Source: Chloroflexota bacterium
GTDB lineage: Bacteria > Chloroflexota > Dehalococcoidia > Lucifugimonadales > Lucifugimonadaceae
Length of the DNA stretch: 64,000 nt
Assembly (NCBI GenBank): GCA_027618835.1
Contig: JAQCHZ010000013.1
Location: forward strand, 1 to 64,000
Direction of reading: 5' to 3'
Made by a program: the position numbers and the translations under genes. Below the pieces are notes generated by a model, which did no database searches, was not told where the DNA came from, and saw nothing but the letters and a program-made list of their open reading frames with translations. The stretch's first letter is position 1; every line of letters starts with the position of its first letter. Positions 40,048 to 40,854 of this stretch are shown here, one piece after another.

Positions 40048-40142
40048 CTACTGACTCCAGACGACAAACGATGACGGTACCAATTCTCTAAACAGATGAT
40101 TTCGAGCACCAATATGGTACTCCGTAAAACGTCATTTTCGGC

Positions 40143-40184
40143 AAAAAATAACACCCCTGTGGCGATCACAGGGGTGTTATTTAA
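40143..40184 (-). terminator. Intrinsic terminator after the Rdx gene pair
   Basis: A 14-bp perfect stem AATAACACCCCTGT (40147-40160) with ACAGGGGTGTTATT (40168-40181), loop of 7. On the minus strand it continues into TTTT, just after the selenoprotein stop; it can also work on the plus strand. Confidence 0.85.
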
Positions 40185-40209
40185 TTCTTACTCATTTACC
40201 GCGGTGCGG

Positions 40210-40485
40210 TTATACGGTGACGGCGGCGATCATATTTATGACCTTCGCCTTCACTTCTTTCGCATCCGGCAGGGTTGGATACCTACCCACTTCATCTTTA
40301 TCGAACGCAACCTCGCCATTGAGTGTCACTTTAAAGACACCACTATGCCCAGGTGTGAGCGTGATTGCGATGTGCGACCCACCGGCCGCAAAAAGTTCGC
40401 TTCCCATCCAGAAAGCCACTGAGTGATAACTTCAGGTTACGCAGTATTCAATCTCTGCTCGAACCTTTGCACGTACTGCAGCCAC
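40210..40485 (-). CDS. SelW-like (Rdx family) selenoprotein with CVTU redox motif
   Basis: Reading from GTG 40485 (GGAG 6 bases upstream) gives 91 residues with one in-frame TGA at 40432-40434, codon 18. The frame reads EIEYCVT-TGA-SYHSVAFWMGSELFAAGG and continues to TAA-type stop at 40210. The neighbouring Rdx gene (40570-40854) has EIEYCVPCGYANLAANMVNELFQAAG: the TGA falls exactly at the second Cys of its CxxC. The rest aligns without gaps (PGHSGVFKVTLNGEV against PGHSGAFKVTVDGRV). A hairpin with a GG-containing apical loop follows at a bSECIS-like distance. Together these support selenocysteine insertion, not termination. Conventional calling would start at TTG/GTG near 40419 and lose the active site. 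SelW-like proteins are small thioredoxin-fold redox proteins. The SelA/B/C/D machinery is not in this window. Confidence 0.85.
40399..40434 (-). promoter_or_regulatory. Sec UGA codon and bSECIS-like hairpin
   Basis: UGA at 40434-40432, then 15 bases, then a 6-bp stem GCUUUC/GGAAGC (40416-40411 with 40404-40399) enclosing the loop UGGAUG. The loop GG lies about 22 bases after UGA, within the 16-37 range given for bacterial SECIS elements. Confidence 0.65.
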
Positions 40486-40569
40486 ATCGATCTCCAACTC
40501 TTCCTGTTCAACTCGTAATCATCAACCGCCATTTCTAGGAATAATCCGAAGAAAGCGCGGCATTGCCAT

Positions 40570-40854
40570 CTAGCTGCTTTGAATTACAGCACTAGACTCA
40601 ATCATATTTGCAACAGTTGCTTTGAGTTCTTTTACTTCCATGATGTGAGGCGAGCGACCCGACTCTTTTTTGTCCCAAAGCACTCGACCGTCAACGGTTA
40701 CCTTAAATGCACCGCTGTGTCCTGGCTTAAGTGAAATTGCAAGAGCAGGTCCAGCTGCCTGAAATAGCTCGTTCACCATGTTTGCCGCTAAGTTGGCATA
40801 TCCACATGGCACACAGTACTCGATCTCAGCTTCCATCTTCCAGTGATCAGACAT
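40570..40854 (-). CDS. SelT/SelW/SelH (Rdx) family protein, Cys form
   Basis: A 94-residue thioredoxin-like Rdx protein. Redox motif CVPC (Cys14, Cys17) follows the first strand EIEY; downstream are GPALAISLKPGHSGAFKVTVDGRVLWDKKESGRSP, the usual GxFEVxxDGxxVxSK-type region of the family. AGAGGT lies before ATG 40854. It is 84 bases upstream of the Sec-containing paralogue on the same strand, and a terminator follows the pair, so they form one transcription unit. Redox partner unknown. Confidence 0.85.
   Translation of the reverse strand: MSDHWKMEAEIEYCVPCGYANLAANMVNELFQAAGPALAISLKPGHSGAFKVTVDGRVLWDKKESGRSPHIMEVKELKATVANMIESSAVIQSS

Follow-up and report, generated by a model that had tools for sequence, protein, structure and literature searches.

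SelW-like proteins carrying a CxxU motif top the table of prokaryotic selenoproteins in the GOS marine survey, with 427 sequences (PMC2398784), and they rank first in a later set, in which they account for 11.3% of the selenoprotein genes (PMC9402790), according to the accessible sections of both papers. In the accessible part of a report on Epsilonproteobacteria, TGA-containing SelW genes with a SECIS element are likewise described, some of which had been overlooked in annotation (PMC4607533). A word search of PMC2398784 and PMC9402790 does not return "Chloroflexi", no paper combining SAR202 with selenoproteins was found in the open-licence literature, where seven are listed for selenoprotein together with Dehalococcoidia, and a word search of the main text of PMC10444878, which concerns cultivated SAR202, returns no word beginning with "selen".

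The stretch of DNA analyzed here (64,000 nucleotides, referred to as the window) belongs to a genome of 2.4 Mb in 41 contigs that is 88.94% complete, and the host is a SAR202-type member of the Chloroflexota near Candidatus Lucifugimonas. The locus of interest resembles the marine SelW-like selenoproteins of PMC2398784 and PMC9402790 in its family, its CxxU motif and its marine setting, whereas it differs from them, within the accessible sections of these papers, in that the host clade can be named and the Sec form stands in tandem with a Cys form. A comparison with the epsilonproteobacterial SelW genes reveals the same combination of a TGA and a SECIS element but in another phylum, and no tandem Cys form is seen in the accessible part of PMC4607533. 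Among the selenoproteins reported for marine prokaryotes, the SelW-like CxxU group is already the largest, and the gene does not represent a new kind; it is a well-preserved, ordinary member of a known family and is unsurprising to a selenoprotein specialist.

The Sec-form gene and its family

The Sec-form gene is located on the minus strand of the window (40210..40485) and comprises 91 codons, from a GTG start (40485-40483) to a TAA stop (40212-40210). A GGAG visible in the sequence 6 nt before the GTG (40492..40495, minus strand) is a likely ribosome-binding site. Codon 18 is an in-frame TGA (40432..40434, minus strand), which is followed by 73 codons and the TAA, giving 91 residues in total when the TGA is read as selenocysteine. 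The region around the TGA (EIEYCVT.SYHSVAFWMGSELF) reads EIEYCVT-TGA-SYH, and the matching stretch of the adjacent Cys paralogue (EIEYCVPCGYANLAANMVNELF) reads EIEYCVPCGY. The alignment of CVPC with CVT-TGA indicates that the TGA occupies the position of the second Cys of the CxxC motif, and the N-terminal CxxU motif of the Sec-form gene corresponds to residues 15-18.

The preliminary description had claimed an in-frame TGA at this Cys, 73 codons from there to a normal stop, a GTG start with a ribosome site, a hairpin with GG in its loop approximately 22 bases after the UGA, and a headless 69-residue protein as the outcome of ordinary gene calling. All of these elements are present in the sequence, and a mechanical call at the locus indeed yields a 69-aa ORF with a GTG start (40419-40210, minus strand). 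A 108-aa ORF on the plus strand (40096-40422), antisense to the Sec-form gene, is longer than this headless sense ORF; it is spurious and could mislead a gene caller. An inverted repeat that resembles a terminator, with a T run following on both strands, is found directly after the Sec-form gene (40146..40182).

The Sec-form protein scores above the curated cut-offs of both models of the SelT/SelW/SelH (Rdx) family, PF10262 (58 bits; cut-off 22.6) and TIGR02174 (40.6 bits; cut-off 34.2), and the unlike feature is a Sec in the position at which the neighboring paralogue has a Cys. Its score against the equivalog model NF041051 (SelTWH_Campy) is 50.3 bits, below the cut-off of 88. The solved Rdx proteins 2ojl, 2fa8, 3dex, 2oka, 2obk and 2p0g match with E values of 7.6e-9 to 1.4e-4 over 62 to 80 of the 91 residues, and in 2ojl and 2fa8, the two that were aligned residue by residue, the second Cys of their CTQC motif is aligned with the Sec position. 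Judged from its sequence, the gene product is very probably a CxxU selenoprotein of the SelW/Rdx family.

Conservation of the TGA codon and of the surrounding frame

At an E value of 0.001, 115 of 149 genomes (own genome included) contain a match to the Sec-form protein. A homologue search of genome contigs returned 17 loci, 16 of which are in records of Chloroflexi, Dehalococcoidia, SAR202 or Candidatus Lucifugimonas marina, and the complete Candidatus Lucifugimonas marina genome (strain JH1073, CP046147) encodes a protein with 82% identity over residues 1-91 and the motif CVPU. Among the 19 genomes of the same genus, 16 carry an intact copy with a single TGA, one (G001) carries a decayed copy, one (G018) has the Cys form only, and one (G002) has no match to the Sec-form protein in the E 0.001 search. 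Additionally, G001 is observed to keep both selA and selB.

The 16 intact copies and the locus L109 form an aligned same-genus set of 17 genes, in all of which the site is a TGA and never Cys, TAA or TAG. Pro precedes the TGA in 14 of these genes and Thr in the other three; 15 of them start with ATG and two with GTG, the gene in the window being one of the latter. A YCxxU motif is present in all 62 non-redundant intact Sec copies that were fetched, a set that leaves out the decayed G001 copy and duplicate records. Four further copies show YCxxU (L132 and L134), FCMSU (L135), or YCxxU together with an extra in-frame TAG (L133).

The preliminary description had proposed that homologues be compared at this site, and in these homologues the sequence upstream of the TGA is a conserved protein and not an unrelated sequence. 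Across the 17 genes of the genus, pN has a value of 0.109 over the 16 codons before the TGA and 0.130 after it, compared with 0.643 over the 16 codons that precede the start; pS values lie at 0.66-0.73 in all three regions. The corresponding pN/pS ratios of 0.07, 0.08 and 0.52 are rough because synonymous sites are near saturation.

These data bear on the alternative in which the TGA is a real upstream stop and translation yields just the headless 69-aa protein initiated at the internal GTG (40419). Such a product is the exact outcome of the mechanical ORF call, and the fragment still passes PF10262 (33.8 bits; cut-off 22.6). However, the codons before the TGA are conserved as strongly as those after it, and the internal GTG, although retained within the genus, often corresponds in wider relatives to a codon that is not a start codon. 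The fragment is also devoid of the CxxC/U motif and does not reach the cut-off of TIGR02174 (21.7 bits; cut-off 34.2), and a headless product is considered very unlikely.

A second alternative, a pseudogene or a sequencing error in which a Cys codon has become TGA and translation of the entire frame has been lost, is even less probable. Decay of this gene does occur, as the G001 copy (L059:823-1116) contains additional stops, with two TGA and one TAA within the match, but all 17 genes of the genus, which come from separate assemblies, share this TGA, and pN is low before and after it. On the evidence of this invariance and of the protein conservation flanking it, the in-frame TGA is more than a chance occurrence.

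The downstream hairpin and the selenocysteine genes of the host

Downstream of the TGA, the minus strand can form a hairpin of 6-7 pairs (40399..40416; GCUUUCU-GGAU-GGGAAGC, with seven pairs if the top U-G is counted), the apical loop of which, GGAU (40409-40406), begins 22 nt past the TGA. A published bSECIS model, as given in the accessible part of its source, has a stem of 4-16 bp, a loop of 3-9 nt located 16-37 nt from the UGA, and a G as the first or second nucleotide of the loop, in addition to a free-energy constraint (PMC13188914). The comparison covered the stem, loop, G and spacing features, with all of which the hairpin in the window agrees, and it is a probable bSECIS element. Its stability is ordinary (z -0.80; 39/200 shuffles equally good), and the minimum-energy fold lacks the hairpin in two of the five SelW genes that were folded singly (L034 and L083). 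Rfam scans of the gene region and of the whole window gave no match, which is not evidence against a bSECIS. The hairpin and its T run were also flagged as terminator-like, a reading that was rejected because the T run is lost in relatives.

The codons of the hairpin are more strongly constrained at synonymous sites than the gene as a whole. They (+5 to +12, six scorable) have a synonymous identity of 0.92, versus a gene mean of 0.51, and this value is reached by none of 20000 random codon sets; the same codons of the Cys paralogue have a synonymous identity of 0.46. In the 62 sequences, pairing of columns 18-24 with 30-36, a stem that was drawn after the alignment was inspected, is found in 75.1% of cells versus 58.1 after shuffling (0/500 as high), and the covariation score of this stem is 0.485 versus 0.166 after shuffling (0/500), with a best slide of 0.262. 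Two of the five stem measures are not clearly above the shuffles (70/500 and 53/500 as high), and within the 7-pair stem, two outer pairs are broken in 36/62 and 44/62 sequences. Unaided, RNAalifold recovers a core of columns 21-24 with 30-33 around UGGAU, with double changes at all four pairs.

Stems with a pairing score of at least 11, a threshold chosen within the same analysis that applied it, are present in 47/62 Sec genes, a count that averaged 18.4 and peaked at 28 when the sequences were randomised synonymously 200 times; of the Cys genes, 4/28 have such a stem. A bare 4-pair test is non-discriminating (57/62 Sec genes versus a randomised mean of 50.3 and maximum of 57; 12/28 Cys genes), and 5/62 Sec genes are without a conforming contiguous stem. 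Compared with that of the wider relatives, the stem of the genus is one base out of register.

The presence of Sec machinery in the same genome was the further check put forward in the preliminary description, and tRNA-Sec (anticodon tca), selA, selB and selD are all found there, each over its family cut-off. The selD gene contains an in-frame TGA of its own (LATCAG-U-AGKL; L024, minus strand, TGA 2397-2395, contig C41) and a hairpin with the loop GGUUU 32 nt past this TGA, which together suggest that selD itself probably encodes a selenoprotein.

Across genomes, the TGA copies track these genes. Among the 82 genomes with a TGA copy among the matches listed, which extend down to approximately E 9e-7 such that weaker TGA copies may count as absent, 78 contain selA, 78 contain selB over the cut-off, and 81 contain either; the TGA position in this class was verified in the fetched copies, and G137, which carries L133 with the extra TAG, was counted as having a TGA copy. 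The other 67 genomes contain selA or selB in 47 cases (Fisher p 2.5e-7 versus the TGA-copy genomes, uncorrected for shared descent). The exception is G101, a genome that is 74% complete, in which a Sec-form copy (L132, YCVSU) is present but neither selA nor selB passed the threshold applied. The occurrence of selA or selB without a Sec-form SelW copy is common, and would be expected if other selenoproteins are present in those genomes.

That the UGA is read as some other amino acid, through a variant code (e.g., Trp) or plain near-cognate read-through, is compatible with the frame alone but scarcely credible, given that TGA ends 14 of the 58 ORFs of at least 90 aa obtained by greedy selection from the window (the spurious ORF 40096-40422 is among the 14), that a tRNA-Trp identified in a scan of four loci has the anticodon cca, that plain read-through has no need for a frozen, covarying hairpin, and that the TGA copies follow selA/selB across genomes.

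The Cys paralogue and the proposed decoding of the tandem

The Cys-form paralogue (CVPC; 40570..40854, minus strand; PF10262 68.1 bits) is located 84 nt upstream of the Sec-form gene on the same strand, and this arrangement, with a Cys gene just upstream and on the same strand, is found in all 16 genomes of the genus whose Sec copy is intact. The Cys and Sec forms are on separate contigs in G038 and G047. In another genus, the two forms are adjacent in the reverse order (L066 in G030 and L077 in G020). The locus L109 comes from a record titled Gammaproteobacteria (N075bin67) that contains a SAR202-type Cys/Sec pair; it falls inside the genus in both trees described below and is probably a misbinned contig.

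In a tree of 110 rows, 34 Cys rows, including L109 and one row from another family (L116), form one clade (99/91), which lies among Sec forms as the sister of the genus Sec clade at 83/82, and the other Cys forms of the order are separate. A tree of 90 rows, to which the larger tree adds 20 and which is without most of the order-level Cys forms, also contains one Cys clade, placed beside other Sec rows. A switch from Sec to Cys after a duplication may be read from these trees with caution, because both are built on 90 columns and midpoint-rooted, and the separate Cys forms of the order bring the number of label changes to five. It is conceivable, if rather unlikely, that the tandem is a functional pair of co-expressed CxxC and CxxU SelW partners that act in a redox relay or provide a backup that spares selenium. 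In this reading, duplication of a Sec-form ancestor would have been followed by a change from Sec to Cys in one of the copies, and the pair would have stayed adjacent across the SAR202 genus.

The proposal of the preliminary description that the UGA encodes selenocysteine is supported by the alignment with Cys homologues, the hairpin, the synonymous constraint and the covariation. The locus contains a tandem of two SelW/Rdx genes, with the CVPC form first and the CVTU form after it, which may share a transcript. In the reading that these sequence comparisons make almost certain, SelB with Sec-tRNA(UCA) would decode the UGA of the CVTU gene as selenocysteine, and the bSECIS hairpin with its GGAU loop would direct this decoding. 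The predicted product is a 91-residue protein with a Cys-x-x-Sec pair, for which thiol/selenol redox chemistry is the most likely role.

A clear predicted selenoprotein and the accompanying Sec genes are now placed in a SAR202 genus, and the SAR202 members and their Cys/Sec tandem are additions to a known family. The case, in which mechanical calling yields a headless ORF, is useful for annotation. Additionally, the adjacent Cys and Sec forms provide a natural comparison of the contribution of Sec to a SelW-type protein.
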